NCBI RefSeq assembly: GCF_024612015.1
Contig: NZ_CP102512.1
Location: 1 to 64,000, forward strand
Reading direction: 5' to 3'
Source of the DNA: Streptomyces sp. CA-210063
Lineage (GTDB): Bacteria; Actinomycetota; Actinomycetes; Streptomycetales; Streptomycetaceae
Length of the DNA stretch: 64,000 nt
Position numbers and translations under genes: made by a program. Position 1 is the stretch's first letter. Every line of letters begins with the position of its first letter. The notes beneath the pieces are model-generated. The model did no database searches, was not told where the DNA came from, and saw only the letters and a list, made by a program, of their open reading frames with translations. Below, in pieces: positions 1 to 18,935 of the stretch.

Positions 1-330
1 TACCACATCGCTGCGCGATGTGCAAGCGAACACCCATGCTGCGCATGGGTGTTGCGCTCCCGCACCGCGGGAGCGCTGGCGGGCCGCTCCGCGGCCCGCT
101 CAACCTGACTGCTGCGCAGTCAGGTTGACGGTCCGTCCGCTGCGCTCCCGGACCGGCGGGGCTACGCCCCGTTGTCAGGCCTCCGCTGCGCTCCAGCCTT
201 GGGGGGCGGGTCCGCTGCGCTCCCCCGCCTGACGGTCTTTCCGGCTGCGCCTCCAGAACCTTGGGGCCCGCTGCCGCGGGCCGGGCTGGCTACGAGGGGG
301 GTTGCTCGTTCGTGTCGGTTCTAGTGTATC
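1..330. other. Streptomyces-type telomere (terminal palindrome array)
   Basis: The replicon end is a run of near-contiguous perfect inverted repeats, most closing on a 3-nt loop (TGC, TCC or TAC). Arms and loops are at 4-22, 29-53, 54-76, 79-99, 101-127 and 157-171, with looser ones out to about 290. This is the arrangement known from archetypal Streptomyces telomeres, where the 3' overhang left after bidirectional replication folds into hairpins and is patched using the terminal protein Tpg and Tap. From memory, the archetypal end begins with a 13-bp GC palindrome directly before the TACCACATCG found here at position 1, so palindrome I is probably missing from the assembly. Nothing in 1-387 looks coding. 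Confidence 0.93.
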
Positions 331-387
331 GCTGCCCCAGCTTGATGCAGCATGTATTATTGGCAAAAATGGAGTAGGGGCGGAACG

Positions 388-1056
388 ATGGTCGTCAGTG
401 AGGTAATCCCTGGAGGGCTCACCCGCAGGGCTAAGTATTTCATTAGGTGCCACGGCTACTGGACTGGTCGCGGAAATATAGAGCAGTACAGGGCTCGATG
501 GATGGAGCACGGGGTACCTGAGGGGCAGATCGATCGGGTGTCCGCCTTCGAGGCTGTCTGGGGCGGCCTGGTCCTTCCTCCTTCTCCTCACTATGACGGG
601 GGGCCTCGGGCGTTCCGCGGGGACGTACCCGAGAGGCCGGCCCGTGACTGGCTCTTCGAAGCCGGCGCGCAGCGTACGGCTCTTCCCTATGCGTTCGTGA
701 TCGGTCCGAACGGAGAGTTCGGGCTTCACGCCGGGACGTGGGTGCCCTTGCATGCCAGCATCGCAGGGTGGGTTGAGTCTCTGGCCCTGGCGGATCACGC
801 CCGTAGGTGCGCGCGTACCACTGCGACGTTGACGGGCGCTGCCGTGGACGACCTCGAGCTGGACGGGTTCGAGGCCGTGCCGGAGGTTGCCGGCCTCGCA
901 GACGCCTGGTGGCGCGGCAACGACTCGCTGATCGCCATCTACCGCGGCGAAGCCGAGGTCATGGAAGCGCCCCGCTGCCAGACCGCCACCATCTACGCCG
1001 GACTCGACGCATGGGGACTCAGAGGACTCGACGGCACCGACACACCCTCGAAATAA
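388..1056 (+). CDS. Telomere-proximal protein of unknown function
   Basis: This is the first gene from the end, about 222 aa if it starts at the ATG at 388, which has a GGGGCGGA element just upstream. An ATG at 352 would add 12 residues. I do not recognise a family. The protein is soluble-looking and Trp-rich, with no signal peptide or membrane segment and no obvious catalytic motif. It ends 44 bp before the helicase gene on the same strand, so the two may be co-transcribed. Its position between the telomere palindromes and the TtrA-like helicase suggests a telomere-related role or subtelomeric cargo, but that is context only. Confidence 0.7.
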   Translation: MVVSEVIPGGLTRRAKYFIRCHGYWTGRGNIEQYRARWMEHGVPEGQIDRVSAFEAVWGGLVLPPSPHYDGGPRAFRGDVPERPARDWLFEAGAQRTALPYAFVIGPNGEFGLHAGTWVPLHASIAGWVESLALADHARRCARTTATLTGAAVDDLELDGFEAVPEVAGLADAWWRGNDSLIAIYRGEAEVMEAPRCQTATIYAGLDAWGLRGLDGTDTPSK

Positions 1057-1100
1057 CCTCACACAACACCGCCGGGTCCTACCCGAAAAGGGAATCAGAA

Positions 1101-4085
1101 ATGCAGGTCATCTCGCTCAGGGAACACCAGATCGACCAGAAGGCCGCCTTCCGTAAATGGGTGGGATTTCCTGCAAGATCGTCTGTGCCCCCTCAGGGTG
1201 CTCGGGGCACGATCGTGTCCGCGACCGGATCCGGCAAGACGATCACGGCAGCCGCGTGTGCGCTGGAGTGCTTCCCGGGCGGCCGGATCCTCGTGACCGT
1301 GCCGACCCTGGACCTGCTCGTGCAGACCGCCCAGGCGTGGCGCCTGGTCGGCCACCGCTCCCCCATGGTCGCGGTCTGCTCACTGGAGAACGACCCGGTG
1401 CTCAACTCGCTGGGGGTGCGCACCACCACCAACCCGATCCAGCTCGCCCTGTGGGCCGGGTCCGGGCCGGTCGTCGTGCTTGCCACATACGCCTCTCTGG
1501 TGGACCGTGAGGACATCGATGCACCCGTGGGCCAGCGGAAGGTCCGCGGGCCGCTGGAGGCCGCTCTGGCGGGCGGAGAGCGGCTGTACGGCCAGCAGAT
1601 GGCGGGCTTCGACCTCGCGATCGTGGATGAGGCTCATGGAACTGCCGGTGATCTTGGTCGTCCGTGGGCGGCGATCCACGACAACGCCCGTATCCCCGCC
1701 GACTTCCGGCTCTACCTCACCGCCACCCCCCGCATCCTCGCCTCGCCCCGCCCGCAGAAGGGCACGGACGGCCAGGAGGTGGAGATCGCGACCATGGGCC
1801 AGGACTCGGAAACCTACGGGCCGTGGCTGGCTGAGCTTGGGCTAAGCGAGGCGATCGAACGCGCAATCCTCGCCGGGTTCGAGATCGACGTGCTGGAGAT
1901 CCGCGACCCCTCCCCGGTCCTCGGGGAATCGGAGGAGGCGCAGCGAGGCCGGCGCCTGGCCCTACTGCAGACCGCGCTCCTGGAGCACGCCGCAAGGTGG
2001 AACCTGCGCACCGTGATGACCTTCCATCAGAAGGTTGAGGAGGCAGCGGCGTTCGCGGAGAAGATGGCGGAGACGGCCGCGGAGCTGTACATGAATGACG
2101 CCTCCGACGACGACCTGGCGGCCGCAGACCGGCTCCCCGCATCGTCGATCGACGCGGAGTTCTACGAGCTGGAAGCAGGTCGCCACGTACCCCCGGACCG
2201 GGTGTGGTCGGCATGGCTGTGCGGCGACCACCTCGTATCCGAACGCCGCGAGGTGCTGCGGCAGTTCGCCAACGGCATCGACGCCGCCGGCCGCCGGGTC
2301 CACCGCGCGTTCCTCGCCTCGGTGCGGGTCCTCGGGGAAGGCGTCGACATCACCGGCGAACGCGGAGTGGAGGCGATCTGCTTCGCCGACACCCGCGGCT
2401 CCCAGGTCGAGATCGTGCAGAACATCGGCCGCACGCTCCGGCTGAACCGCGACGGCAGCACGAAGATCGCGCGCATCATCGTGCCGATCTTCCTGGAGCC
2501 CGGCGAGGACCCGACGGACATGGTGGCCTCCGCCTCGTTCCGCCCTCTCGTAGCCGTCCTCCAAGGCCTCCGCAGTCATGATGAACGACTCGTTGAGCAA
2601 CTCGCCTCCCGCGCCCTCAGCAGCGGGAAACGCAAGGTGCACGTCCAGCGCGATGAGAACGGGCGGATCGTCGGGACCGGCGGCGAGAGCGACGGCAAGG
2701 ACCAGGAGCAGGACGACACCGACGCCGCCGCCGAGTCGGCCCTGCTCCACTTCTCCAGCCCGCGCGACGCGTCGACCATCGCGGCCTTCCTGCGCACCCG
2801 GGTCTACCGGCCGGAGTCCCTGGTGTGGCTCGAGGGCTACCAAGCCCTGCTGCGCTGGCGGAAGGAGAACCACATCACCGGCCTCTACGCCGTCCCCTAC
2901 GACACCGAGACGACGGTCGGCGTCACAAAGGGCTTCCCGTTGGGCAGGTGGGTGCACCAGCAGCGAAAGGCACTGCGGGCCGGGGAACTGGAGCTGCGGC
3001 GCAGGGAGCTCCTGGACGCTCCCGAGGCCGGGATGGTCTGGGAGCCGGGGGAAGAGGCATGGGAGAACAAACTCGCCACGCTCCGCTCCTACCGGCGGGC
3101 CACCGGGCATCTCGCACCCCGCCAGGACGCCGTCTGGGGCGAGAGCGAGGCCGAGGGCCTGGTGCCCATCGGACAGCACATGGCCAACCTCCGCCGCAAA
3201 GGCGGCCTCGGAAAAAACCCCGAACGCGCGCAGGCTCGGGCCGCGCAACTGACCGCCATCGACGAGGACTGGGACTGTCCGTGGCCTCTGGACTGGCAAC
3301 GTCACTACCGCATCCTCGCCGACCTCGTCGACACCGACGGCCACCTGCCCGAGATCGCACCCGGCGTGACCTTCGACGGCGACGACATCGGACGATGGCT
3401 CGCACGGCAACGCGAGGCGAGCACCTGGGCGCAACTGTCCACCGAGCAGCAGGAACGGCTATCCAAGCTGGGCATCAAGCCCACTGAGGCGCCGACTCCC
3501 GCCCCGGCGGCAACGCGTGCGACCAAGGGCCCGAGCAAGGCGCAGCAAGCGTTCCAGCGTGGCCTGACCGCCCTCGCACAGTGGGTGGAACGGGAAGGCG
3601 CCAACCGGCCTGTACCACGCAGCCACGCTGAGGAGATCACGGTCGACGGCGAGACGGAACCGATGGTCGTGAAACTGGGCGTATGGACTTCGAACGCCCG
3701 GGCGAGGTGGGACAAGCTCACTTCCGAGCAGCAGGCCGCCCTCGCCGCCTTGGGTGCGCCCTGGGCGAAGGCCGCAGCGGTGCCGGCCCCGTCCGGCGGC
3801 ATGGGCGACGGTTCCGTCCGGCCCGCGTCGTCGGACGCACAGGCCCAGGAGGACCACGACCAGGGCGACACGGTGACGGGGGAAGAGCGCGAGACCCAGG
3901 CAGCACGGGGCCGGGCGCGGGCGCAGCGCAAGAACGAGCTGATGCGCAACCACACCAAGGCAGAACTGCTGCACATGGCCTACGCGGGCGGCCTGGTGCG
4001 CCACAACTCCCCCGAGCAGTGGCGCAAGGACGAAATCGCCTCCACCGTGGTCGACATCGAACTCCGAGCTGCCGACCGGCTCTGA
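1101..4085 (+). CDS. ttrA: TtrA-like terminal SF2 helicase with helicase-associated repeats
   Basis: About 994 aa. The N-terminal half is a superfamily 2 helicase: Walker A SATGSGKT near residue 39, DEAH box VDEAH near 175, motif III LTATPR, and motif VI QNIGRTLR near 440. The C-terminal half carries repeats of the helicase-associated (HA) type, recognisable by the ID-DW--PWPLDWQ signature near 730 and following Trp-rich repeats. A low-complexity linker and a charged tail follow. Helicases of this layout (TtrA/TtrA-like) sit at Streptomyces chromosome and plasmid ends and have been linked to conjugation and end processing. The ATG at 1101 is chosen because it immediately precedes the helicase domain and has a GAAAAGGGA element upstream; the frame is open earlier but overlaps the preceding gene. 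Confidence 0.88.
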   Translation: MQVISLREHQIDQKAAFRKWVGFPARSSVPPQGARGTIVSATGSGKTITAAACALECFPGGRILVTVPTLDLLVQTAQAWRLVGHRSPMVAVCSLENDPVLNSLGVRTTTNPIQLALWAGSGPVVVLATYASLVDREDIDAPVGQRKVRGPLEAALAGGERLYGQQMAGFDLAIVDEAHGTAGDLGRPWAAIHDNARIPADFRLYLTATPRILASPRPQKGTDGQEVEIATMGQDSETYGPWLAELGLSEAIERAILAGFEIDVLEIRDPSPVLGESEEAQRGRRLALLQTALLEHAARWNLRTVMTFHQKVEEAAAFAEKMAETAAELYMNDASDDDLAAADRLPASSIDAEFYELEAGRHVPPDRVWSAWLCGDHLVSERREVLRQFANGIDAAGRRVHRAFLASVRVLGEGVDITGERGVEAICFADTRGSQVEIVQNIGRTLRLNRDGSTKIARIIVPIFLEPGEDPTDMVASASFRPLVAVLQGLRSHDERLVEQLASRALSSGKRKVHVQRDENGRIVGTGGESDGKDQEQDDTDAAAESALLHFSSPRDASTIAAFLRTRVYRPESLVWLEGYQALLRWRKENHITGLYAVPYDTETTVGVTKGFPLGRWVHQQRKALRAGELELRRRELLDAPEAGMVWEPGEEAWENKLATLRSYRRATGHLAPRQDAVWGESEAEGLVPIGQHMANLRRKGGLGKNPERAQARAAQLTAIDEDWDCPWPLDWQRHYRILADLVDTDGHLPEIAPGVTFDGDDIGRWLARQREASTWAQLSTEQQERLSKLGIKPTEAPTPAPAATRATKGPSKAQQAFQRGLTALAQWVEREGANRPVPRSHAEEITVDGETEPMVVKLGVWTSNARARWDKLTSEQQAALAALGAPWAKAAAVPAPSGGMGDGSVRPASSDAQAQEDHDQGDTVTGEERETQAARGRARAQRKNELMRNHTKAELLHMAYAGGLVRHNSPEQWRKDEIASTVVDIELRAADRL

Positions 4086-4087
4086 CC

Positions 4088-4102
4088 ACAGCATGATGCT
4101 GT
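4088..4102. terminator. Short palindrome between convergent genes
   Basis: A perfect 7-bp inverted repeat (ACAGCAT/ATGCTGT, 1-nt centre) lies in the 43-bp gap between the convergent helicase and tpg genes. There is no T-run, so it could be a weak bidirectional terminator or merely a protein-binding palindrome. Confidence 0.3.
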
Positions 4103-4128
4103 CGACGGGGCTCGCGGCTGTTCGAGAT

Positions 4129-4686
4129 CTACAGGTCGAACTCGAGGTGCTCGATGTCCGTGAAGCGGACCTCCTCCAACTGCCCGGCGCGGCGGCCGCC
4201 GTCCTGGAAGTACACCTCCTTGAGTGCCTCAGCCGCGATCTCCTGCAGGCGCTGCTCGGTGGCGCCCTGCTCCTGGGCGTCGAAGAGGCGGGCGGCGTAG
4301 CGGGGCGGCAGGGCGACGGTCAGGTGCCGGATGCGGTCCTGATCCGTCGACCCGATCGGCGCGGTGTAGCCGAGCCGGGCCCGGGTGTCGACGACGATGC
4401 CGCCCGTGGTCGCCGCCTTCTGCCGGGCCTTGGCCCTAATCTGCGGCTGCCACCGCTTCTTCACCTCGCGCTCCAGCCGGGCTGCGAGGTCCGGGCGCGG
4501 CTTTTTGATCTGGTCCTTCACGTACCGCTCGACGGTGCGCTGGGAGATCCGCAGCATCTGGGCGACCGCCTTGGTGCCCTTGAGCTGCTTGACCAGGTAC
4601 CGCATCTGCGCGGGCGCGCTCTTGGGCGCGGGGCGGGTGAACGCCTTCTGCACCGCGGCTTCCAGGCCGTCCCCGAACAGGCTCAT
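4129..4686 (-). CDS. tpg: Telomere terminal protein Tpg
   Basis: 185 aa, matching the characteristic length of Tpg. The protein attaches covalently to the 5' ends of linear Streptomyces replicons and primes fill-in of the terminal gap. Visible features are the conserved N-terminal segment (KAFTRP, then YLVKQLKGTKAVAQ), a helix-turn-helix-like stretch around residues 38-60 ending TVERYVKDQIKKPRPDL, and the basic KKRWQPQIRA segment. The residue at position 114 is Thr, which, from memory, is the deoxynucleotidylated residue in the S. lividans protein. The start ATG has an AGGAGAAGG ribosome-binding site. The gene lies 12 bp after the tap stop, so tap-tpg is an operon, as in known replicons. Confidence 0.96.
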   Translation of the reverse strand: MSLFGDGLEAAVQKAFTRPAPKSAPAQMRYLVKQLKGTKAVAQMLRISQRTVERYVKDQIKKPRPDLAARLEREVKKRWQPQIRAKARQKAATTGGIVVDTRARLGYTAPIGSTDQDRIRHLTVALPPRYAARLFDAQEQGATEQRLQEIAAEALKEVYFQDGGRRAGQLEEVRFTDIEHLEFDL

Positions 4687-4698
4687 CGTCGCCTTCTC

Positions 4699-6942
4699 CT
4701 ACTCTCCGTTGTCGACGTCGGTGACGGTGCCGTCCTTGATGTACCGGGCGAGGTTGAGCTCCGGCGCGTTGAACCGCTCGCGGACCTCTTCGCCCCACAA
4801 GACGCTCTGGGTGCCCTCGTGCTTGACCAGGCCCGGGTTGATGCCGAGCTTGAAGCCGCCCGGCAGCGGCTTGCCGTCCCGGTACGGCAGGAAGTCCAGC
4901 GGGCTGGTGCCGTCGACGGCGTAGACGACGCAGTCGGACAGGACCGCGACCGGGTACTGCCCGGTGAACGCCGCGTGCTTGACGATCTTTCGGTGCAGGT
5001 TGATCCGGGTGCGGGAGATGACCGCCGCGCGGATGTCCGGCCGCCACGTCGGCCGGGACAAGGCCCGCCACGGCTCGCCCGGCCGCCAGCGCTCACCGCG
5101 CGGGCGCTCGCGCAGCTTGCCCAGGCCGCCCTTGACCGTCGCCTTGACCGCAGAGACGACGATCGCCAGCTCCGGGTCACGCTCCTTGTAGCCGTCCATC
5201 GCCGCCAGGAAGTCCTCCGGCGACAGGTCCGCGTGCACGCCGAGGTCAGCCATCGTGGTCAGGTAGGCGTCCCGCAGCCGGTTGTACCAGCCGTCCAGGT
5301 AGCGGCCGCTCTCGTACCGGACGTACGCCTCGATCGGCGCGACGTCGTAGCCGAGCTCCACCGCGTACGCCACGGTCGGCGTCGCGTACCAGGCCGGCCC
5401 CTCGGGCCGCTCGCCCTTCGGCGTGAACGGGCTCGGCAGCAGACTCGCGTCCAAGTCTGCCCATTTGTTCTTGGCGACCCTCACCCGGGACAGGTCGACG
5501 TGCGAGAGGTCCACCAGCCACGAGCCGGGCAGCTTCGCATCGAACACCGGCGCCTTCACATGCGTCGGCGCACCGAGGCCGACGACCAGGCCGTTGGCTC
5601 CGGCGGCGAAGGCCATGTTCACGTCGATGCCCACCAGGTGCCGCAGGGTGCACTCGGCATCCGTCATCGGCCGCGCCCAGTCGTACGCCTCCTCGAACAA
5701 CTTCTCCGCCGGACCGCGCACGTGGAACCGCGGCAGGTCCGCCAGGAGCGGGTGCCCGTCGGGGGCCTCGCACGGCGCGCAGTCCACCGGGTCCTTCCCG
5801 AGCGAGCCGGGGTTGTGCTCGGAGTGCCGCTTGCCGTCGGCGTCCGGCTCGGAGGCCCGGGTCGGCGGGTGCAGCGCGGTCATCAGCTCCAGACCGGTCA
5901 CGGCGGTCGATCCGCGCGGCGTCATCACCCGGGACGCGTACACGCCCAGCACGCGGGCGAGTTCCGCCGGCGCCAGCTTCCCGGCCTCGCCCCAGTGCCG
6001 GGTGTCGAGCGCGTGCCACGACGGGATGCACAGCTGCACGCAGGCACGCTCCGAACCGGTGGCGGGACGGTAGATCCTCGCCCACGGCCCGAACCCGCGC
6101 TTGGTCAGCTTCCAGTCGGCACGCGCCAGTTGCTTGATGACCTTGTGACCCTCCGGAATCCGCCCGGCGAGCCGCTCCTCCTCCGTGAGGGCGACGGGGA
6201 GGCCGTAACGCTCCAGCGCGGACTCGGTGAGCACAAGTAGCGGATCGGCGTCCTTGCCCGGCCCGGACAGCTTCGGCTGCCCGAGCCGCGCCTCCTTGAG
6301 CGTCCACTCCACCAGGGCCGGGATGCTCTTGGCGGGCACCTCCAGGACCAGGCCGCCGACGCAGTACGCCAGCACCTGCCCGTCCTCGACATCGACGACC
6401 GCCAGCGGACCGTTCACAAACCGCGGATCCGTGCCACCCGCAGGAGTACCGGCCGGAGGCGCCTTCCGCGCGCCCGGACGGCGCGACGTCGACGACGGCC
6501 TGGCGGTGCGCGCCGGACGCGACGCAGCGGCCGGAGCTGGGGCGACGGGGGCAGAGGTCTGGGTGTTCTCGGTCGCAGTCATGGCCGCAGCCTCGGAGAC
6601 CGGCGCCGCGGCCAGAGTCCGGACTTGTGGAGCGGGGGCAGGCTCGCCGGTGAATGTCTCAGGCACCGCCGTGTCCTGCTCGGGTGCGGCGGGGTTGGTG
6701 GGGGCGGGGTAGAGCTCCGCGAGCTGCTTGAGCATCCGCGCATACGCGTCACGCTCCGGCGGTCTGGGCTCGGTCTTACCGGCCTCCCAGCCGCTGACGG
6801 TTGCCCGCCGAACGTCCAGGGCTGCGGCAACTTCGTCCAGCGTCAGGCCGTGTGCCTGGCGCAGCCGCTTACGTTCCGCCGACGGCGGCAGCACAGACCG
6901 GGACGCGACCAGCGCATCGATCCGATCGAACAACTCGGACAT
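4699..6942 (-). CDS. tap: Telomere-associated protein Tap
   Basis: About 747 aa, close to the ~740 aa of known Tap proteins. Tap binds the folded 3' overhang and recruits Tpg to it. The N-terminus has an XRE-like helix-turn-helix at about residues 22-60 (GLTLDEVAAALDV, then VSGWEAGKTEP). An Ala/Pro-rich linker (about 90-165) leads to the large conserved Tap core. The chosen ATG at 6942 has a textbook AGGAGGT six bases upstream; the longer open frame adds only seven residues. tpg follows after 12 bp. Upstream are four phased CGTACG palindromes that this helix-turn-helix could bind. No frameshift was seen, unlike in the neighbouring transposition genes. Confidence 0.95.
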   Translation of the reverse strand: MSELFDRIDALVASRSVLPPSAERKRLRQAHGLTLDEVAAALDVRRATVSGWEAGKTEPRPPERDAYARMLKQLAELYPAPTNPAAPEQDTAVPETFTGEPAPAPQVRTLAAAPVSEAAAMTATENTQTSAPVAPAPAAASRPARTARPSSTSRRPGARKAPPAGTPAGGTDPRFVNGPLAVVDVEDGQVLAYCVGGLVLEVPAKSIPALVEWTLKEARLGQPKLSGPGKDADPLLVLTESALERYGLPVALTEEERLAGRIPEGHKVIKQLARADWKLTKRGFGPWARIYRPATGSERACVQLCIPSWHALDTRHWGEAGKLAPAELARVLGVYASRVMTPRGSTAVTGLELMTALHPPTRASEPDADGKRHSEHNPGSLGKDPVDCAPCEAPDGHPLLADLPRFHVRGPAEKLFEEAYDWARPMTDAECTLRHLVGIDVNMAFAAGANGLVVGLGAPTHVKAPVFDAKLPGSWLVDLSHVDLSRVRVAKNKWADLDASLLPSPFTPKGERPEGPAWYATPTVAYAVELGYDVAPIEAYVRYESGRYLDGWYNRLRDAYLTTMADLGVHADLSPEDFLAAMDGYKERDPELAIVVSAVKATVKGGLGKLRERPRGERWRPGEPWRALSRPTWRPDIRAAVISRTRINLHRKIVKHAAFTGQYPVAVLSDCVVYAVDGTSPLDFLPYRDGKPLPGGFKLGINPGLVKHEGTQSVLWGEEVRERFNAPELNLARYIKDGTVTDVDNGE

Positions 6943-6976
6943 CGAACACCTCCTGAGCAACACCCTAGCCCACTAA

Positions 6977-7017
6977 CCGTACGGATAGCGTACGTTTGCC
7001 GTACGAAATGCGTACGG
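6977..7017. promoter_or_regulatory. Four CGTACG palindromes at exact 11-bp spacing
   Basis: CGTACG occurs at 6978, 6989, 7000 and 7011, each copy exactly 11 bp from the next, or about one helical turn. The array ends 35 bp upstream of the tap start and lies in the 464-bp divergent gap before tniQ-1. Phased palindromes suggest cooperative binding on one DNA face, for example Tap autoregulation through its helix-turn-helix, or a replication/telomere-protein iteron. The spacing is directly visible; the function is inferred. The rest of the gap (7018-7406) shows no convincing gene. Confidence 0.6.
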
Positions 7018-7406
7018 CAGGTGTTCTATGTATCGGCGGCGGCCGTGGCCCTGCCCCAGGCCGCCCCCTGCGGGCCGGTCGCCCAGCGCACAGCCCTGGA
7101 CAGCCCGCGTCCTCACGACTCGTGCGGCATCTCGAAGTCGGCCTCGGCGCACAGGGCGTGCTGGGCCTGCGCGGCGTGGACCGTCCGGAAGGAGCGCCGC
7201 AGCGCGCCGGCGTCCCTATCCTCAGCTTTCCAGAGTCCGACCTGCCCGATGTGGTCTGCGTGGAGCAGCGACCAGTGCCCTCTACCTGGAACAAGCGGTG
7301 GGACGTGGCAGTAGGAGAAAGCGAGGAGGAAGGTGCAGCAGGGCAGCCTCGGTCCGACGAGAGCCGCGACCTGCTGAGAGGGCTGCGCCGGAAGGCGAGT
7401 GAGCGT

Positions 7407-9776
7407 GTGCGTGGAGTGTTGCGGGTGGTGCCGATGTCCGGTGAGACGACGTGGTCGTTCCTGCACCGGGTCGCGGCCGCCTACGGGCTGCAGGCCGGCG
7501 ACCTGACGGCGTGCTGGCGGTGGGCGAATCCCGTGCACCAAGCGCGCGGTGTGCGCCCGGACGGCGAGGTCCTTCTCGACGAGGCGGCGCAGGAGCAGCT
7601 GGCCGGCTGGTGCCGGGTGCCGGGCGGGCATCTGGCGCGGGCGTTGCCGTCGTGGTCGGCCGGGCCTGCAGCGCTGGCCGGCCGTGGCGGTGGGAGACAA
7701 GGGTGGGCGGGTGGCGGGTGGGGTCCTCGGAGTGGGGGCCGGTGGTGTCCGGCTGCCGGCTGTGTGCGGCTAGGGGCGGCCCGGGTGCGGGGCGGGTGTG
7801 GGTGTACCGGGCGCGGTGGCGGCGGTTTGTGTGTGCGCCATGGGCGGTGGCTGCTGGATGCGGGTGAGGGGCATCCGTGGGAGTTCGCCGATGTCGGGTG
7901 CCTGGGGCGGGAGCTGGACGGTGCGCAGCGGCGTTTTGGCCGAATAGTCCGGGCTGAGGCGGGCGCGGGCGTGGGGGTGGGGGTGGGGGTGGTGGGCGGG
8001 GAGGTGTTCGCGCTGGCGCGGGCGGTGGTGTGCGGGTGGTGGGAGCGGGAGGAGTTCTGGGCGCGGGAGCGGGTGTGGGGGCCGCGTCTGGAACAGGTGG
8101 TGGCGGCCACCTGCCGGCGGTATCCGGAACCGCCGGGCTGGGGGGAGCGGCAGTGGCGGCTGCTGGTGCGGGACGTGGTGGTCTTTCCCGAGGTGGTGAC
8201 GGTGGCGGCGGCGTTGAGCGATCCGGTGGTACGGGAGCTGGCTGCCGGGGGCGCAGCGCCGGGGCTGGTGCGCAGGCCGGGTGGGGAGGGGTTCGTGGCC
8301 GCGTTGGGTGCCCGGCTGGGACGGGACTGGCTGGGGGAGGTCGAACAGCCTGATCAGGCAGGGCCGTTGTCGGTGTGGGTGCAGGCGGTGGCCCGCGAGC
8401 AGCGCCGGCCCGCGGCGGTGCTGCCGCCGCCCGGGCGGGGGATGTGGTGGGTGCGCAGCGCGCACCGGCCCGTGGAGGTGGGCCCGGGCCTGCGTCTGCT
8501 GGCACCCGCCTTCGATACCGGCGCGGGTCCGGGCGGGGCTGCGGGGGCGGGGGCGGGAGGGTGGCGGGCGGAGCCGGCTGTGCCGCGGCGTACCGGGCAC
8601 GGTCAGGGCCTGACGCGGCGGCACGAGGAGCTGTTCGCCGAGGGGCTCGAGCACGCGCGGGCTCACGCGGCGCGGTGGGGACACCTGGCGCTCCCCCACA
8701 CCAGCGGCCGGGCCGGTGCGGGCTTCGATCTGGGGCGGTGGCTGGCCAACCGGCGTGCCGACGCGGCGTCGCTGACCCGCCGGCAGGCGGAACAGCTCGG
8801 CGCACTGGATGCCTGGTGGAACCCGCCGTGGCCGGTCGACTGGCAGCGGGCCTGGTACCGCGCCCGCACCCACGTGAGGGAGCGCGGGCCGGTACACGGC
8901 GGGGACAACCTGCAGGGGCTGCCGCGCTGGCTTGAGCGGTGGCTGCGCCACCAGATCACCCACTACCCGCAGCTGCACGACGGCCAGCAGCAGCTGCTCG
9001 CCGAGCTCGGGCTGCCCGCGGCCGAGGCCGAACGGTTTAACGCCTGGCCCGGCCGGCGCCGCCCGGCCGCCGACGGCCTGGCCCAGGCCCGCGCCTACGC
9101 CGCCCGCCACGGCCACCTCGCCGTCTCCAAGCCCACCCGCACCGACACCGGATTCGCCCTGGGAACCTGGCTCAACCAGGTACGCCAGCGTCAGCACCCC
9201 CACGGCCGGCCCACCCGCCTGGGCCGGCAACTGACCGCTATCGATACCTGGTGGAACCCGCCCTGGCCGGTCGCCTGGCAGCGCATGTGGTGGGCCTGCC
9301 GCCACCACCTGGCCGGCCTCCCCGACGGCATCGCCTGGTGGCCGGGCGCACCGGATGCCGAACAGGCCACCGCATGGCTGGGCGAGCAGCAGGACCGGCA
9401 GCCACTGCCGCACCCAGAACAGCAGGACCTGATCGACCAACTGGAGGCGCTGGCCGGCAGGGTGTTGGTGTGGCAGCCGCGGATCAGCGACACCGCCTGG
9501 CACTCCCTGTCCGCCCTGCTGCCCCCGCCCTCGCACACCGGCGGCCGCCGCAGCGAACGGCAGATCCTGGAAGCCATCATCCACATCGCCTGCACCCGGC
9601 AGGCCTGGCGACGCCTCCCCCAGGCCCTGGGCTCCTTCCAGACCTGCCGACGCCGCTACCTGAGCTGGCTGGCCGACGGCACCCTCACACGTATCTGCCA
9701 CGCTGCCCTCCCGGCCACCGACCAGGCATGGCAGCAAACCCTCGCCCACCGGCTGCGTACCAGCGCACAGGACTGA
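7407..9776 (+). CDS. tniQ: TniQ-HA-DUF4096 fusion, putative target-site selector (TniQ-1)
   Basis: About 789 aa from the GTG at 7407; the start is uncertain and the frame is open further upstream. Domain order: an N-terminal TniQ-like region (SGETTWSFLHRVAAAYGL, then CVRHGRWLLD as part of the zinc ribbon); at least two HA repeats of the type seen in the terminal helicase (LGRWLANRRA, then WWNPPWPVDWQ; a second copy ends WWNPPWPVAWQ); and a C-terminal domain like the DUF4096 DNA-binding domain of IS5 transposases (ISDTAWHSLSALLPPP, then RRLPQALGSFQTCRRRYL). TniQ proteins direct Tn7-like transposition to targets. Compared with TniQ-2, the first zinc-ligand segment (GCRLC, near 7755) lies in the +1-shifted frame, which implies two compensating frameshifts at about 7650-7700 and 7830. 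A sequencing error or an inactivated copy are both possible. Confidence 0.72.
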   Translation: MRGVLRVVPMSGETTWSFLHRVAAAYGLQAGDLTACWRWANPVHQARGVRPDGEVLLDEAAQEQLAGWCRVPGGHLARALPSWSAGPAALAGRGGGRQGWAGGGWGPRSGGRWCPAAGCVRLGAARVRGGCGCTGRGGGGLCVRHGRWLLDAGEGHPWEFADVGCLGRELDGAQRRFGRIVRAEAGAGVGVGVGVVGGEVFALARAVVCGWWEREEFWARERVWGPRLEQVVAATCRRYPEPPGWGERQWRLLVRDVVVFPEVVTVAAALSDPVVRELAAGGAAPGLVRRPGGEGFVAALGARLGRDWLGEVEQPDQAGPLSVWVQAVAREQRRPAAVLPPPGRGMWWVRSAHRPVEVGPGLRLLAPAFDTGAGPGGAAGAGAGGWRAEPAVPRRTGHGQGLTRRHEELFAEGLEHARAHAARWGHLALPHTSGRAGAGFDLGRWLANRRADAASLTRRQAEQLGALDAWWNPPWPVDWQRAWYRARTHVRERGPVHGGDNLQGLPRWLERWLRHQITHYPQLHDGQQQLLAELGLPAAEAERFNAWPGRRRPAADGLAQARAYAARHGHLAVSKPTRTDTGFALGTWLNQVRQRQHPHGRPTRLGRQLTAIDTWWNPPWPVAWQRMWWACRHHLAGLPDGIAWWPGAPDAEQATAWLGEQQDRQPLPHPEQQDLIDQLEALAGRVLVWQPRISDTAWHSLSALLPPPSHTGGRRSERQILEAIIHIACTRQAWRRLPQALGSFQTCRRRYLSWLADGTLTRICHAALPATDQAWQQTLAHRLRTSAQD

Positions 9777-10033
9777 CGGGCAGCAGGGGGCGCGGCTTTT
9801 AGGGGGCTGGCTGTCTGGGGGAGGGCGGGAATGCGGCGGGCCGGGCCGTGGTCGGCGGATGCGCCATGCCCAGGTGGCTGAGGAGCTCCGTGGACGCGCT
9901 GTCAGAGGGCGAAGCCGCTTCATCGAGCGGGTCAGCTCTCCACAGCCTCCCGCGCCAATCCGGTGTGCCTGATCCGTTGGGCATCCGTTGTGAAAGTGCC
10001 CGCCCGGGACGGCGAACACGAGACCGTGGTGGA

Positions 10034-11428
10034 GTGACCCCTCCCCCCGGCCTGCTGCGCACCGCTCCCCTGCAGGGAGAGACGACCTCGTCGCTGATCT
10101 GCCGCATCGCGAGCCGCTACGGGATGGAAGCGAAGGTGCTGCGGTCCTGCTGGCACTGGCGCAACTACCAGCCCGGACACGACGGCGGGGGCGCGCGAGC
10201 CGATGCCGAGGCGCTGCTGAACGCAGCCGGACGGCAGCTCCTGGCAGGCCTGTGCGGGGTCAAGGAAGACGTGCTGGTGCGGGCGCTGCCGTCCTGGGAA
10301 CAGGAGGACGCCAAGCTGCCCGCCGGGGAGGACGGAGCGCCGGCGGCGGCGTGGCGGATCGGCGGCGCGGTCGCGGGGCCGGTGGCATTCGGCTGCCGCC
10401 TGTGCACGGCCCGGCGTACGGGGACGGCCGTGCGGGTGGTGCGGTACGCGCCGCGGTGGTCCCGGGTGTGTGTCCGGCACGGGCGGTGGCTCCTGGACGC
10501 GGACGCCGACCAGCCCCTGGAGTATCTGGACGTGCGGCATCTGCCGGAAGTGGCCGCGGCGCAGCGGCGGTGGACCGGGGTGGCGCGGCGAGCGGTACGG
10601 ACCGGCGCGGAGCCAGAGCGGGTGTTCGCGCTGGCGCACGCGGTGGTGGCCCGGTGGTGGGAACAGGCCCTCAACTGGGAGCGGGAGACCATCTGGCCGC
10701 GGCGCCTGCACCAGGTCGCAGGCGGTAACGCCGGCGGTGATCTGGAACGGTGGCGGATCGTGGGGCGGGACGCGGTCGTCTTCCCCGAGGTGGTGGCCGT
10801 CGCCGACGCGCTGCTGGACCCGGCCATGGCCGAGCTGGCGTGGGCGGACAGCGGCGCCGGACGGCCGCGGGCGCTGCCCGCCGATGGAATGTTCTGCCGC
10901 CGACTCGGTGAGCGGGTCGGCCGACCGTGGCTGGGGCCGCTGGCCGCGACCGACTACGGCGGCCCGCTGACCTCCTGGATGGGTAGCGTCATCCGCCTTC
11001 GCCGCGGCGCTGGCGGGCCACCCGGATACGACAACGATCCATGGTGGCTGCGCCAGGAGCACCAGTGCGCGACCATGGCCGGGCAACTGCGGGTATTGGG
11101 CAAGGAGAAGAAGGCGCCCGGGTCGGGCAGGATGTGGCGCGCGGCGGTGCCCGCCGAACAGCGGGCGCTGATCACCCGGGCGATCGAGAGCGCCGAGGAA
11201 CAGCTGCTCCAACTGCGCGGAGCGCAGACCGGGCCTACCGCCGATGTTGCCCGGCAGCTCCTGCGCAGCCTCCGCCACAGCGCCGACCTGATCGAGAACG
11301 CGTGGAAGCGGACCGCCCTGGCCGCGGCGAACGCCGGGATGCCCCTGGACGAGGTCGCCCAGTGGGCGGACATGTCTCCCGACGCCTTGATGGACATACT
11401 GACGGCCGGCCAGGAAGACAGCGGCTGA
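10034..11428 (+). CDS. tniQ: TniQ family protein (TniQ-2)
   Basis: About 464 aa from the GTG at 10034, chosen because it precedes the TniQ start (LQGETTSSLICRIASRYGM) and matches the TniQ-1 N-terminus. The zinc-ribbon ligands are intact: GCRLC near residue 120, and VCVRHGRWLLD near 145. Downstream it aligns in sequence order with TniQ-1 (FALAHAVVARWWE, then DAVVFPEVVAVADALLDP), but it lacks the HA and DUF4096 domains. The C-terminus is instead a helical segment of about 120 aa. TniQ links target recognition to the TnsC ATPase. Two different TniQ proteins in one element usually mean two targeting modes or a heteromeric complex; which applies here is unknown. tnsA follows after 130 bp. Confidence 0.82.
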   Translation: MTPPPGLLRTAPLQGETTSSLICRIASRYGMEAKVLRSCWHWRNYQPGHDGGGARADAEALLNAAGRQLLAGLCGVKEDVLVRALPSWEQEDAKLPAGEDGAPAAAWRIGGAVAGPVAFGCRLCTARRTGTAVRVVRYAPRWSRVCVRHGRWLLDADADQPLEYLDVRHLPEVAAAQRRWTGVARRAVRTGAEPERVFALAHAVVARWWEQALNWERETIWPRRLHQVAGGNAGGDLERWRIVGRDAVVFPEVVAVADALLDPAMAELAWADSGAGRPRALPADGMFCRRLGERVGRPWLGPLAATDYGGPLTSWMGSVIRLRRGAGGPPGYDNDPWWLRQEHQCATMAGQLRVLGKEKKAPGSGRMWRAAVPAEQRALITRAIESAEEQLLQLRGAQTGPTADVARQLLRSLRHSADLIENAWKRTALAAANAGMPLDEVAQWADMSPDALMDILTAGQEDSG

Positions 11429-11558
11429 AGGACCGCCCGGCAAGCGCGGAACAGCCGCCAGAGGGGGCTCGTCAACCGTTAGCGCACGCGGTACCCGTTC
11501 GCGGCAGGAATCCCCAAAACCACCCTGCCTGCACGCGGACACGGCTTGGCTGAAGCAG

Positions 11559-12368
11559 GTGATCAACGCAGATACGGCCAGGCCAGGAAGCCGGGCAGGG
11601 CGGGTGGCGGCCGGTCGCCCTACCGGGTTCGAGGTGGTCTTTCTCGACCCCGTCGGGCAGGTGGTCCAGCAGCGGTGGGCGGACGCCGCCCTCGCGGTGG
11701 CGTTCGAGGACCTGGCGCCGGTGTCCGCATTCCCGGTGATCCCGGGGCGGCGGTGGGGACCGGGCCTGTGGTGGTCGTCCACGACCGGACGGCACGTTTC
11801 TGCGGGATCGAACGCGATGCGCACCCAGCTGATCGTCCTCGACCGCGATCCGCGCGTGACCGCCCTGGCGGGGCGGCCGGCACGGCTGCTGTGGCGCAAC
11901 CCCCGCGGGCAGGTGCGTTCCTGGGTGCCGCAGCTCTTCGCCCGCTACACCGACGGCACCGCCCTGCTCGCCGACTGCCCCAGCCACCCCGACACCGGCG
12001 GCGAACGTGCCCTCAACGCCGCAAGGGCCGTCGCGGAAGCGTGCGCACACATCGGCTGGACCTACCGCCGCCTCCCACCGCTCGACGACATCCTGGCCGC
12101 CAACCTGAAATGGCTGGCCGGCTACCGCCACCCCCGCAACGCCGGCCCGACCGGCCTGACAGCGGCCGTCCTTGAGGCGTTCGCGCGGCCGCGGCCGCTG
12201 ATCGAAGGCGCCGAAGCCACCGGCGACCCGATCGCAGTCCTCCCCGCCGTCTTCCACGCCCTGTGGCACAGACAGCTGACAGCAGACCTGGAAACGCCAC
12301 TGCACGAACGCGTCCTGATCGGCCCGCAGGGCTGGAGCGGCCCCGGCAAGACGGAAGGTGCCGGGTGA
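11559..12368 (+). CDS. tnsA: TnsA-like transposase endonuclease subunit, catalytic residues apparently lost
   Basis: 269 aa from a GTG. The protein resembles actinobacterial TnsA-like subunits (FEDLAPVSAFPVIPGRR, then SSTTGRHV, LFARYTDGTALLADCP). TnsA cuts the 5' strands at transposon ends in Tn7. The acidic residues expected in the nuclease core seem to be absent: where family members, as I recall them, have an E in the segment after the GRHV-like motif, this one reads SNAMRTQL, and where PD precedes the FAR segment it reads VPQLFAR. If so, cut-and-paste chemistry would be impaired. The stop codon overlaps the tnsB GTG in a GTGA junction, so translation is coupled. Confidence 0.72.
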   Translation: MINADTARPGSRAGRVAAGRPTGFEVVFLDPVGQVVQQRWADAALAVAFEDLAPVSAFPVIPGRRWGPGLWWSSTTGRHVSAGSNAMRTQLIVLDRDPRVTALAGRPARLLWRNPRGQVRSWVPQLFARYTDGTALLADCPSHPDTGGERALNAARAVAEACAHIGWTYRRLPPLDDILAANLKWLAGYRHPRNAGPTGLTAAVLEAFARPRPLIEGAEATGDPIAVLPAVFHALWHRQLTADLETPLHERVLIGPQGWSGPGKTEGAG

Positions 12369-14458
12369 GCGCGCGGCGCAATGCCCGGCCGGCCGTGAAG
12401 GTCGGAGCTCACGTCCGCTTCCGCGGCGTGAAGTGGCAGGTGGTCGCCCTGTCCGGGCAGGACATCCACCTCGTCGGCCCGGACGGCGGCGGCCAGGCCG
12501 TGCTCGCCGGGCACCTGTTCGCCGACCCCGGCTTCACCGTCATCGGGGCTGATGTGCCCCAGGCGGCCCCGCAGTGGGGGCTGTTCGAGACCGCCCCCGC
12601 CGCGGCGCGCGAGAAGGCACTGGCCTGGCAGCGGCACGTGAGAGAGGTTGAATGCGGCCTTGCCGGCGGACCCGGCAGCGACGGCGCGGTGCGGCCGCAG
12701 TACGACCCCGAACAGTACACGCTGGCCCAGCGCGAGCAGGCCAAAGCCGAGGAACTGACCGCGCTCGGCTTCGCCGCGTCTCACGCACCACGGTGCAGCG
12801 CATGCGGCTCGCCTACCGCAAACAAGGTCTGTGGGGGCTTCTCGACCACCGCAGCACGCGCGCCCCCAGTCCCACGGGGCGGGCCGACGAACGGGTCGTC
12901 GCCGCCGTCCGCGAGGCGCTGCGCCGCCGGCGCGGCCGCTCCAAGGGCACCATCAACGGCCTGTTCCCGCTGATCAACCAGATCCTTCAGGACCGGCACG
13001 GGCCCGGTACGGTGCCCGCGCCGTCCCAGGCCACCCTGTACCGGCTCGTCACCACCCTCGCCCGCCCCGGCGAACTACCCGCAGGGCCCGTGCGGCAGAC
13101 GCCCGCGAGCTTCGACGGGCGGGCCTTCACCCCCACCACGGCCTTGCGGCCCGGCGAGCAGGTCCAGGTCGACACCACCCGCCTGGACGTCCTCGCCCTC
13201 TTCGACGACGGCACCCTCGCCCGCCCCGAACTCACCATCGCCATCGACGTCGCCACCCGCGCCATCCTCGCCGCCGTGCTGCGCCCGAGTGCGACCAAGG
13301 CCGTCGACGCGGCCCTGCTGCTGGCGGAGATGGCCGTCCCGCACCCCGCCCGCCCCACCTGGCCCAACATCCTGCGCATGGACCACGCCCCCGCACTCCC
13401 CTACCAACGGCTGACCACGCTCGATGAGCGCCTGGCGGGGGCGGCGGCTAGGCCGGTCGTCCTGCCCGAGACGATCGTCGTCGACCGGGGCAAAGTTTTC
13501 GTCTCCCGGGCGTTCACCGCCGCCTGCGAAACCCTCGGCATCAGCGTCCAGCCCGCCCCGCCCTTCGCTCCCACCGCCAAAGGCATCGTCGAGCGCGCCT
13601 TCGGCACCATCAACCATCTGTTCTGCCAGCACCTGCCCGGCTACACCGGATCCGACGTCACCCGCCGCGGCCCCGACGCCGAACAAGACGCCTGCTACAG
13701 CGTCGCCCAGCTGCAGGACCTGCTTGATGAGTGGCTGGTGCACTACCACCACCGCCCCCACGAAGGCCTGCGCCACCCGATGATGCCCCGCAAGGCCCTC
13801 ACTCCGAACCAGATGTGGGCCGCGCTCGTCGCCGTCGCCGGATACGTCCCCGTCCCGTTGACCGGCCACGACTACCTCGAACTGCTGCCCGTGCGCTGGC
13901 AGGCCATCACCGCCTCCGGCATCCGCATCCACCACCGCACCTACGACGCGGACCTCCTCGCCCCCTACCGCGGCCAGCCCTCCCCCCACACCGGCCGAGG
14001 CGGGAAATGGGAGATCCACTACAACCCCCAACGTCCGCCAGATCTGGATCCGCCTGCCCGACGGCCAGCTCACCGAGATCGGCTGGATCCACCGCGACCA
14101 CGTCCACCAGCCGTTCAACGACCGCACCTGGCAGCACATCAGAACCCTCACCCTGCACGGCAACCACCACGACGCCGAGCAGTACGAAGCCGACCTCGCC
14201 GACGCTCTCGACCAGCTCATGCGACGCGTCCACAGCGGCCACGCCACCAAAGCAGAACAGGCACTCGTAGCCCGCACCGCCGCCCTCCCCCTCCCCGCAG
14301 CCCGCCGCCCAGAACACGACACGGGCCAGAGCGCCGACGACCCAGCGCAGTGGGACGAGGACGACAGCATCGACGACCTCCCCCACGACGACACCCACCC
14401 CGCCGCGGCCACCGGATTCGGGCTCTACGACGCATACGAGGAAGCCGACAAGTGGTAA
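12365..14458 (+). pseudogene. tnsB: TnsB-like DDE transposase, interrupted by two frameshifts
   Basis: The coupled GTG at 12365 opens a TnsB/MuA-type integrase-fold transposase of about 697 codons. Conserved order: N-terminal beta/helix region (KVGAHVRFRGVKWQVV), helix-turn-helix (RTTVQRMRLAYRKQGLWGLL), then the DDE core with D in EQVQVDTT (about residue 268), D in TIVVDRGKVF (374) and E in GIVERAFGTI (410), followed by a C-terminal beta-barrel and an acidic tail. Two lesions are visible. An extra TC near 12779-12782 shifts frame 2 to frame 1. One extra C in the C5 run at 14025-14029 shifts it back to frame 2. Together they add 3 nt, so both ends share a frame. The stop overlaps the tnsC start. 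Confidence 0.85.
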
Positions 14459-15510
14459 GCCCATGCCCACAGAGCCCAAGCAGCACAGCAGCCACCGCCG
14501 GCGGCGCGGACGGCGGTGCCGCCGAGCCGTCGTGGCCCCTGACCACCTGGCAGGGCTGGCACCGCTTCGCCACCGCCGCCCCCGTCACCCCGCCCCAGCC
14601 CGGCGCCCCGCCCCGCAGTACCGAAGAGCGCCTCGCCTACCACTCCAGCTTCGTCACCATCCGCACCCCCGCGATCAGCACCCTCGCCACCCAGGTCCGC
14701 ACCCTGATGATCCTCGGCCGCCACCAACAGGCCACCGCACGACCCTCACTGATCGTCACCGGACCCGCCGCAGCCGGGAAAACCACCGCCCTCCTCCACG
14801 TCGGCCGCGCCTGCCACCTCGCCCACACCCGCAAAAACCCCGCACCACCCGGGTCAACCCACGCCGCGGTACCCGTCGCGTACGTCCTCGTCCCGCCCGG
14901 CGCCACCGCGAAAACCCTCATCACCGAATTCGCCCGCTACCTCGGCATCCCCACCACCACCCGCATGACCCAGACCCAGATCACCGACGCCGTCTGCCAC
15001 ACCTACACCCAGGCGGGTGTCCAACTCGTCCTCATCGACGAAATCCACCGCCTCAACCCCCGCACCACCACCGGCGCGCAGGCCGCCGACCTCTTGAAAG
15101 ATCTCACCGAACGCCTGCGGGCCACGTTCGTCTACGCCGGCATCGACGTCACCGACACACCTCTCTTCTCCGGCACCCGCGGCGCCCAGCTCGCCGGACG
15201 CGCCACCCTCATCACCTGCGGCCCCCTCCCCGCCCGCCACGGATCACGTGAACCCTTCCGCGACGTCATCACCGACATCGAGAACAACCTCGACCTCACC
15301 CACCACAAAAACGGCGCCCTCCCCCGCCACGCCCCCTACCTCCACCAGCGCACCGCCGGCCGCATCGGATCCCTCACACGACTCATCCGCCAAGCCGCCA
15401 TCACCGCCATCAGTGACGGCACCGAACGCATCACCAAGCAATCACTCGAGGCCATCCGCCTCGACCACCTCGCCGAAACCCACCACCGCCCCCGCACACG
15501 AGGCCGCTAA
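14452..15510 (+). CDS. tnsC: TnsC/TniB-type AAA+ ATPase
   Basis: About 352 aa from a GTG that overlaps the tnsB stop by 7 nt, in the usual tnsB-tnsC coupling. Walker A is GPAAAGKTT near residue 103 and Walker B is LVLIDEIHRL near 193. An arginine-rich sensor region and a C-terminal helical lid (AGRIGSLTRLIRQAA) follow. TnsC-type ATPases polymerise on target DNA, receive the signal from TniQ and activate the TnsB transposase. It is the last gene of the element; only the repeat-bearing end follows. No frameshift is seen. An ATG at 14463 is in another frame and was not used. Confidence 0.88.
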   Translation: MVSPCPQSPSSTAATAGGADGGAAEPSWPLTTWQGWHRFATAAPVTPPQPGAPPRSTEERLAYHSSFVTIRTPAISTLATQVRTLMILGRHQQATARPSLIVTGPAAAGKTTALLHVGRACHLAHTRKNPAPPGSTHAAVPVAYVLVPPGATAKTLITEFARYLGIPTTTRMTQTQITDAVCHTYTQAGVQLVLIDEIHRLNPRTTTGAQAADLLKDLTERLRATFVYAGIDVTDTPLFSGTRGAQLAGRATLITCGPLPARHGSREPFRDVITDIENNLDLTHHKNGALPRHAPYLHQRTAGRIGSLTRLIRQAAITAISDGTERITKQSLEAIRLDHLAETHHRPRTRGR

Positions 15511-15523
15511 CCCCACCACCCCG

Positions 15524-15721
15524 CCAGCACAAACAGCCCTGACCAGCACAAACACCGGCCGATCCTTTTCACGCCAGAGCTACCAACGACGAACCAAGCC
15601 AGACTCAGCACACAACACACAACCCCAGCTCACACACCCCGGCCACCCCGCTGGAACCGGTCACCCGGCCTCTCAACAAACCAGCAACACACCAGGCCAG
15701 CCGCCACCCTGTACACCAACA
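15524..15721. repeat. Degenerate TnsB-site-like repeats and putative transposon right end
   Basis: Read inward, five copies approximate TGTKTGnGCTGG. On the plus strand they are at 15524-15535 and 15543-15554 (identical 12-mers CCAGCACAAACA, 19 bp apart), 15605-15617, 15625-15637 and 15681-15692. Arrays of this kind at the outer edge of a tnsC gene are typical TnsB-binding sites of Tn7-like ends. ACA at 15719-15721 is the best candidate terminal trinucleotide. The exact terminus within about 15713-15737 cannot be fixed. Confidence 0.6.
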
Positions 15722-15737
15722 AGCCCTCCCTCGAGCG

Positions 15738-16310
15738 TCAGCCGCGGGTGGCGCGGTGGAGCCACCACGGGAGCCGGCCGACGTACTCGCCGGGCCCGAG
15801 GATGACGCCTGGGCGCAGTATCACCGCCCGGTCTTCACCGAACGCTGCGGTGGTCGCCCTCTCCGCGCCCGCCTTCTGCCTGCCGTAGTACCAGTCCGGG
15901 CCGTCCCAGTCGTCCGGGAGCCGCCCGTAGTCGGCGTCGGCATCCGGCGGGCCGTCCAGGACTTCAGAGTCCTCCGTCAGCGGATCGTTCGGCCATCCAC
16001 GGTAGGCGTTCACGGTGGAGACGTACACGTACCGGCCGGATACCGGCTCCAGCGCGCGGGCGCCGGCGAGGACATCGCGCGGCGCCATCTCGGAGGCGGA
16101 CGTGTCCACGACGGCATCCCACGGGCCTTCACCGGCCAGGCGCGCGAGGTCTGCGGCGTCTGTGCGGTCGCCGCGGACCGTCCGGGCTCCTTCTGGTGCG
16201 GAGCCGGAACGGCCGCGATTGAACACCGTCACTTCCCAGCCGCGATCGAACGCGGTCTGCGCGACCGCCCGCCCCAGGAACCAGGTCCCGCCGAGTACAA
16301 GAATTCTCAT
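15738..16310 (-). pseudogene. NAD-dependent epimerase/dehydratase, 3'-truncated at the element junction
   Basis: 190 aa with a clear Rossmann start (MRILVLGGTWFLG), the DTSA segment near residue 90 and the WYYGRQKAGAE Tyr-x3-Lys active site near 140. Extended SDR epimerases of this kind are about 320 aa. This one ends just after LPWWLHRATRG, losing the substrate-binding half. The coding match breaks within a few bases of 15738, beside the putative transposon end. The missing part is not elsewhere in the window, as expected if the distal arm was replaced rather than a gene simply split by insertion. Confidence 0.85.
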
Positions 16311-16353
16311 GGCGGCGATCCTGCCGTGTCGAGTCGGCTTGACGGAAGAAAGG

Positions 16354-16815
16354 TCAGTCGGGCACGCCCGACCGTGCTCGGATAGCCGTCAGTCTTCTGT
16401 GCCCGCCGCTGGGTTGTGCGGAGAAAGAGCTGTGGCTCGAAGCACCGACCTTGCGGTCGTGGACCGGGACAAGTGTGCCGTCCACGATCCACAGCCGGTC
16501 CGCGGCATCGACCGGACGGGAGGCCGGCTCAAGCGCGAGGAGAGGTCGGAGCCGCTGGATGACCCAGCACACCGTGGCAGGCGAGAGCCCGAACAGCGGC
16601 GCAAGCTGCCGCATGGTCAGGTTCGTCCGGTAGTAGACAGCCACCACCAGCACCCGGTCGGCAAGCGGCAGACACCACGATCACCCGATCCGCGGCCCGT
16701 CGCCACCCCGCTCCCGCACCATCTTCAGCAACCGCTCGAACTGCTTCATGCGCAGCACCGTGAACGTCTCCACCCACAACGGATCAGCCCTCAACACCCC
16801 AGTCGCACAAGGGAA
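16354..16815 (-). pseudogene. IS5-family transposase remnant (HTH_Tnp_4/DDE_Tnp_4 type)
   Basis: The relic reads LWVETFTVLRMKQFERLL, a spacer, then YYRTNLTMRQLAPLFGLS and WIVDGTLVPVHDRKVG. This is the N-terminal helix-turn-helix and first catalytic Asp region of this transposase class. An in-frame TGA at 16681-16683 interrupts it, and the sequence loses homology after VHDRKVGASS, so the rest of the DDE domain is gone. No inverted repeats were found, and nothing indicates activity. Confidence 0.75.
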
Positions 16816-16910
16816 ATGCCCTGATCACGGCCTTCTGCACCACGCTTTACAGGGCGTTCCCGGACTCCTTCAGTTCGCCGCCGCGTAGCCGGGGGCAGAC
16901 CGGCCCAAGG

Positions 16911-18808: not shown

Positions 18809-18935
18809 CTCCACTGACCGGCCCATCAGTCACAGAACGTCACAGATCACCGGATCTGACACAGCTTCTCAGCTTGTCTTTTAACCTCTGTGCGCTTGTG
18901 TCTGCGGGTTCCTCTCCGTAGGGCGCGGTTTCTGA

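Follow-up and report, generated by a model that had tools for sequence, protein, structure and literature searches.

The first 15,740 bases of the window, i.e. of the whole analysed stretch of 64,000 nucleotides, are one Tn7-like unit that has a telomere as its outer border. The window forms the left end of a linear Streptomyces chromosome, which is represented by a single contig of 10,859,970 bp, and relatives of its sequence are found in Streptomyces. We are confident, short of certainty, that the unit is a Tn7-like telomeric transposon, and that it is likely to spread by joining a single end to a target and replacing everything distal to it. Such a spread is likely because related units, which end at the same base, cap many different replicons. 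The following features were assigned.

1..300, no strand: telomere, a row of hairpin palindromes and the outer element border (folding; base 1 is the start of the chromosome record)
352..1056, plus strand: open frame of 234 aa
1101..4085, plus strand: ttrA-type terminal helicase (Pfam ResIII, DEAD and four HA stretches)
4129..4686, minus strand: tpg, terminal protein (NCBIfam NF047541, 298.7 bits)
4699..6963, minus strand: tap, telomere-associated protein (NCBIfam NF047542, 1127.5 bits)
7332..9776, plus strand: TniQ-HA-DUF4096 fusion (Pfam HA and DUF4096; start uncertain, homologues begin near 7,410)
9923..11428, plus strand: second TniQ (Pfam TniQ below cut-off; homologues begin near 10,034)
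11559..12368, plus strand: tnsA (NCBIfam NF033179, 279.8 bits, cut-off 110)
12365..14458, plus strand: tnsB, DDE-type transposase, broken (integrase core; tblastn pieces)
14451..15510, plus strand: tnsC, TniB-type ATPase (Pfam TniB; start uncertain, 14,451 to about 14,539)
15544..15740, plus strand: inner transposon end, a predicted TnsB-site array that ends at a conserved GCGT(T/C)A
15741..16310, minus strand: target remnant, an epimerase gene cut at the border (Pfam Epimerase)
14..18877, no strand: terminal inverted repeat of the chromosome, 18,864 bp with one mismatch, comprising the element and 3.1 kb of flank

Read inward, the order is telomere, 234-aa open reading frame, ttrA-type helicase, tpg-tap, two tniQ genes, tnsA, tnsB, tnsC, and the site array, with tpg and tap on the opposite strand to the remaining element genes. 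The telomere, ttrA, tpg, and tap thus all lie within the transposon unit, and TnsA, TnsB, TnsC, and TniQ are encoded together in it, the tnsB gene being broken in the window copy. Matches to Pfam and NCBIfam families, together with folding, confirmed the anatomy that the initial annotation had read from the letters, namely a telomere, a TtrA-like helicase, tpg-tap, two TniQ genes, tnsA, tnsB, tnsC, repeats, and a cut gene. The 234-aa frame had no match in Pfam or NCBIfam searches, and cas genes were absent from the Pfam and NCBIfam matches of the named genes, apart from one weak helicase cross-match far below the cut-off.

The terminal 150 nt fold into a row of small-loop hairpins with a z score of -9.07 (against 200 shuffles), and the z score for the terminal 300 nt is -8.74; the hairpin-rich terminal palindromes of the archetypal Streptomyces telomere are present at the tip of the window. 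The position and the inward direction of the ttrA-type gene are as described in the available part of PMC8743542. Tap and Tpg belong to the archetypal family, both scoring above the curated NCBIfam cut-offs of 600 and 90 bits, respectively. When the genome was searched for both proteins, the sole Tpg match at E 1e-3 was the element copy, once per arm, and the only Tap matches above the cut-off were likewise the element copies, once per arm. The remaining two Tap matches were weak and HTH-sized (22.2 and 20.9 bits), and the same Tap search also gave below-cut-off matches in 4 of 14 control genomes. Because the element holds the only archetypal-family Tap-Tpg genes of the genome, the host is likely to depend on it for its chromosome ends.

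The inner border was defined by comparison with 32 relative loci. The match to the window ended at 15,738-15,742 in 12 of them and stopped earlier in the other 20, which are divergent or truncated copies. Nine of the 12 border-stopping loci have readable flanks, all of which are unlike, one has an N, and in two the contig ends there. The draft contigs L102 (G301:C198) and L104 (G265:C19) terminate exactly at the border base, as is expected if the element has different flanks in those genomes. The aligned borders have ...ACACCAACAA...AGCGT(T/C)A in common, and likeness ceases beyond it. The proposal of the initial annotation that the repeat array is the transposon end was therefore retained, but the position given for it, 15,721, was not, the border being at 15,740 according to the 12 loci and the alignment.

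A model of TnsB sites was built from 16 relative ends, with the window excluded. It predicts sites in the window at about 15544, 15584, 15615, 15682, and 15717. The window array is weak: three of these five predictions exceed the threshold, and its terminal 28 bases contain five mismatches. The scan covered nine relative loci and the first 20 kb of the window, and in 10 of 10 sequences it found one site cluster, always located at the inner end and in a single orientation; one locus had an extra pair of hits elsewhere. The remainder of the window lacks any cluster of three sites. In agreement with the single-ended unit that had been envisaged at the outset, a second, outer TnsB end was not found on either strand in the 10 sequences, the scan of CP108532 covering all but its outermost 945 bp.

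Altogether 18 distinct inner flanks were compared, made up of the nine readable ones, the window flank, those of four more plasmid ends, and four from copies at opposite ends or of another subfamily. Two pairs of flanks resemble each other, but only because both members lie in ttrA-type genes. It had been anticipated that the same kind of unit would be joined to different sequences in other strains, and the 18 flanks bear this out. By eye, no obvious common target motif was seen in their first 40 bases. Six of the 18 flanks could be placed, the window belonging to the other 12: four lie in a ttrA-type gene, a fifth is 111 bp outside a ttrA-type gene that is intact, and the sixth is 0.52 kb from a native end. 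Reading of the flanks by eye places two of the junctions in ttrA about a dozen bases from each other, in homologous HA-coding sequence.

Unoccupied sites were sought by comparing the inner flanks of four element-bearing plasmids with the plasmid collection. For two of the four, CP109092 and CP109295, exact unoccupied counterparts were obtained. In four other plasmid ends, the sequence of the CP109092 flank sets in at bases 523, 549, 524, and 551, respectively, and it starts at the border base in four of four cases. For CP109295, the corresponding distance at four other ends is about 2,427-2,445 bases, and the site lies within the ttrA-type gene resident there; the flank sequence starts at the border base in three cases and four bases inside in the fourth. 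At the occupied ends of both plasmids, the target sequence distal to the insertion is missing. The element's outer 2.9 kb in CP109295 is about 79-81% like the end that it replaced, so homology is available for exchange at this site. For the flanks of CP108532 and CP130682, the latter of which is the 3' remnant of a ttrA-type gene, no unoccupied counterpart was found in the plasmid collection.

Three of the unoccupied plasmid ends of the CP109092 case were folded, and the loop type differs in two (L165 and L167, not L164). A switch of telomere type at CP109092 was considered but not supported, as the other CP109092 end also starts like an archetypal one (86.8% over 68 bp). The stretch outside tnsA in CP109092 is annotated with other genes. 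The CP109295 element carries tap and tpg too, which are about 50% identical to those of the window, and the two elements differ in the loop type of their telomeres. The different loop types, together with Tap and Tpg being only about 50% identical, suggest that a telomere and its end-patching genes may travel as matched sets.

At the border in the window, the stop codon of the truncated epimerase gene is formed by the last three bases of the element, and the epimerase homology to one relative starts exactly at 15,741. A stretch related to the window flank is present in 36 of 392 genomes, the closest others being 86, 84, and 82% identical. Among the three to five closest relatives examined, one (L178) has a full-length epimerase open reading frame, and the epimerase peptide pattern had no match in L175-L177. 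The initial annotation had called for genomes with an intact target and an arm that differs exactly outward of it. This prediction held for two of the four plasmids; for the window chromosome, the unoccupied counterpart of the arm was not found among the relatives (392 genomes), only the intact gene elsewhere. The flank, in its part repeated on both arms, also contains a transposase-like stretch at 16,354-16,840. Some 0.4 kb of this stretch (about 16,438-16,849) is the flank's best match in 30 related genomes, with several copies in each.

The terminal inverted repeats allow two processes to be distinguished, i.e. landing at one end and later copying from arm to arm, because repeats end either at the border or beyond it. 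In S. longwoodensis CP107736, element and terminal inverted repeat coincide exactly (14,329 bp, 100% identical), and the two ends diverge from the border base on into different flanks. Assembly error is a general risk at repeated ends; here, two independent S. longwoodensis plasmid records agree over 20 kb, the record of a second strain being 99.995% identical to the right end of CP107736. Streptomyces sp. NBC_00984 has a unit of 9.2 kb, shared at 99.9%, at the left and the right end of CP108735 and at the ends of CP108736; it stops at the same motif and occurs on these two plasmids in three contexts. In CP107736, CP108735, and CP108736, the unit extends from the record tip to the border, i.e. 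from telomere to predicted TnsB-bound end, as is characteristic of a telomeric transposon. In the window chromosome, equality of terminal repeat and element was ruled out: the repeat reaches 18,877, so that both arms share 3.1 kb of flank. The CP107794 terminal repeat similarly extends 2.2 kb past the border.

With a limit of E 1e-50, the inner part of the element (12263-15721) has a match in 100 of 392 Streptomyces genomes, a count that includes distant and partial copies. Within the plasmid collection, near-mode searching matched 50 records and distant-mode searching 75. For 60 of these 75, positions were listed; in 51 of the 60, the best match to the tnsC end lies at most 30 kb from a record end, compared with 14.2 expected at random. 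"Ends" here are record ends, as the topology of the records was not individually checked. Of these 51 near-end copies, 47 point inward and four outward, and the other nine of the 60 listed records have internal copies. The two internal copies inspected are partial. For one of the internal copies (L181, CP109189, record 49-60 kb), a ttrA-type gene that points the same way lies about 8 kb further out, and this copy is possibly a buried former end. When tpg loci were taken as the starting point (80 of 420, many of them ended by contig ends), tnsB was found at 60% identity or above in five, three of which have a ttrA match above 60%.

The transposase gene of the window copy is not intact. A relative of 700 aa matches it as three tblastn pieces, 12365-12772, 12775-14028, and 14030-14455, with identities of 85, 93, and 74%. 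The two frame changes accordingly lie between 12,772 and 12,775 and between 14,028 and 14,030, and they are present on both chromosome arms. Because the tnsB sequence is identical on both arms, either recent decay or a shared sequence error could account for the breaks. The window copy is predicted to be immobile because its tnsB is broken in frame, unless the breaks are sequence errors. The adjacent tnsA is 79% identical to its CP109092 relative, and relatives of tnsC are annotated as TniB or as ATP-binding.

The second TniQ scores 21.8 bits in the Pfam TniQ search (cut-off 27, E 3.3e-4), and it is 80-83% identical to the tnsA-adjoining TniQ in three relatives. The fusion gene itself has no TniQ profile match, and over 370 aa its N-terminal part and the second TniQ share 40.5% identity. 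Among the best 7,969 candidates scored, 47 of 74 proteins related to the fusion have both HA and DUF4096, and 10 of the 74 have a Pfam TniQ match. TniQ-HA-DUF4096 is a conserved fusion, and in the same set of the best 7,969 candidates five of the 47 proteins with HA and DUF4096 also have Pfam TniQ. A predicted structure of the TniQ-HA protein was set aside (mean pLDDT 52.0, pTM 0.26). Searches of PDB sequences gave no usable relative for TniQ (one match at E 0.094) or TnsA (none).

Comparison of these sequences shows defined borders, loss of the distal part, and movement as a unit; with its 18 flanks and two unoccupied sites, it supports the initial annotation, according to which a single transposon end is inserted into another arm and the distal part is replaced. 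From the gene set, we infer that TniQ and TnsC would choose the target, and that TnsA and TnsB would cut it and then join the single inner end. The other side of the element would already be a DNA end, and Tap-Tpg, or host equivalents, would then maintain the new end. After landing on one arm of the window chromosome, the element and 3.1 kb of flank were likely copied from arm to arm.

Two other origins of the arrangement were weighed against single-ended transposition. Homologous or break-induced recombination between linear replicons might have swapped telomeres and arms, with the tns genes as passengers. Published work explains telomere switching within a Streptomyces population in this way (PMC7205883, in its available part), and recombination would fit the terminal repeats that pass the border, by 3.1 kb in the window and by 2.2 kb on CP107794, as well as the likeness of about 79-81% over 2.9 kb between old and new end in one case. 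However, crossovers would not stop at one base beside a site array in 18 unlike flanks, nor would they leave a terminal repeat that ends exactly at the border, as in CP107736. We therefore regard recombination as an improbable explanation of the whole arrangement: as the cause of the border it is largely refuted, and as the cause of the second-arm copy it is likely. Still less probable, in our judgement, is an ordinary two-ended Tn7-like element near the telomere, with its outer end unrecognised between 1 and 12 kb. The gene set is indeed Tn7-like, and a very divergent end that escaped recognition is conceivable. Nevertheless, neither strand of the window's first 20 kb or of the nine relative loci has a second site cluster, the unit that is common to unlike flanks spans from record tip to border, and the target sequence distal to the insertion is missing.

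A different question is whether single-ended transposition is targeted. Insertion might be untargeted, with far-internal insertions lost through excess deletion, such that the survivors merely look targeted. We consider this well conceivable, at a little less than an even chance. It agrees with the lack of an obvious motif, by eye, in the first 40 bases of the 18 flanks, and with insertions into ttrA that occur both with TniQ-HA (CP109295) and without an annotated one (CP130682, CP108736). The idea that TniQ-HA is tied to insertion into ttrA found no support. The four junctions inside ttrA-type genes and the one 111 bp away argue against untargeted insertion, as do the two whose positions in homologous HA-coding sequence differ, by eye, by about a dozen bases. 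Somewhat more tentatively, the element might be a selfish telomere, i.e. a single-ended transposon that has captured the only end-patching genes of its host, cuts resident telomeres at or beside ttrA, and caps the stump with its own telomere, steered by a TniQ fused to HA domains of the telomere helicase. If this were true, transposition and subsequent arm copying would underlie much of what is regarded in Streptomyces as telomere switching and turnover of terminal repeats.

The unoccupied sites, the terminal repeat that consists of the element only, and the unit that two plasmids of a single strain have in common represent natural experiments, exact to the base, on how a linear bacterial chromosome can gain a new end. 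The question of how terminal inverted repeats and telomere switching arise in Streptomyces can thereby be put to a direct test. The only archetypal end-patching genes of the genome reside inside a transposon with an apparently decayed transposase, which is expected if the host now depends on the element. Eukaryotes, which have telomere-maintaining transposons, may offer a parallel.

Telomeric transposons are defined by a telomere as one border and a transposase-bound end as the other. Hsieh and colleagues are said to have described, in 2025, transposons of Streptomyces and others that have a telomere at one end and a transposase-bound end at the other. In the present case, the element occupies different replicons and the distal arm is replaced (18 flanks, two unoccupied sites), as is typical of this kind. 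The general kind is thus already in print (Hsieh et al., Science 2025, eadp1973, on telomeric transposons of linear bacterial genomes, known here by title and cited in the available parts of PMC12669027 and PMC13228271). A description of the tnsABC, twin-tniQ, tap-tpg family was not found in the accessible portions of these two articles. PMC12669027, as far as its text is available, mentions a class with a type I-E CRISPR system and without TniQ, whereas the window element has TniQ. End exchange has been discussed in other terms: the main text of PMC7205883, in the part at hand, presents telomere switching as a crossover followed by break-induced copying and contains no "transpos-" word, and the available part of PMC8743542 attributes end exchange mainly to recombination and names transposition as one possibility. 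In Streptomyces rimosus M4018, a 6.7-kb region with a TnsA-like transposase moved from the chromosome to a linear plasmid (PMC9045324, from its accessible part), and this could be an observed transfer of a related element.

With Tn7-like elements, the window element shares a TnsA-like protein, a DDE-type TnsB, a TniB-type TnsC, TniQ, and a directly repeated array of end sites. In contrast to them, one such end was found, and the unit contains tap, tpg, ttrA, and the telomere; Tn7-like elements are marked by two ends with TnsB-site arrays, and one cluster was found here in each of the 10 sequences. Because one side of the target remains, a target duplication is unreadable. With the archetypal Streptomyces telomere, it has in common the hairpin telomere, Tap and Tpg above the cut-offs, and an inward ttrA; in contrast to that system, its telomere genes sit inside a transposon unit.
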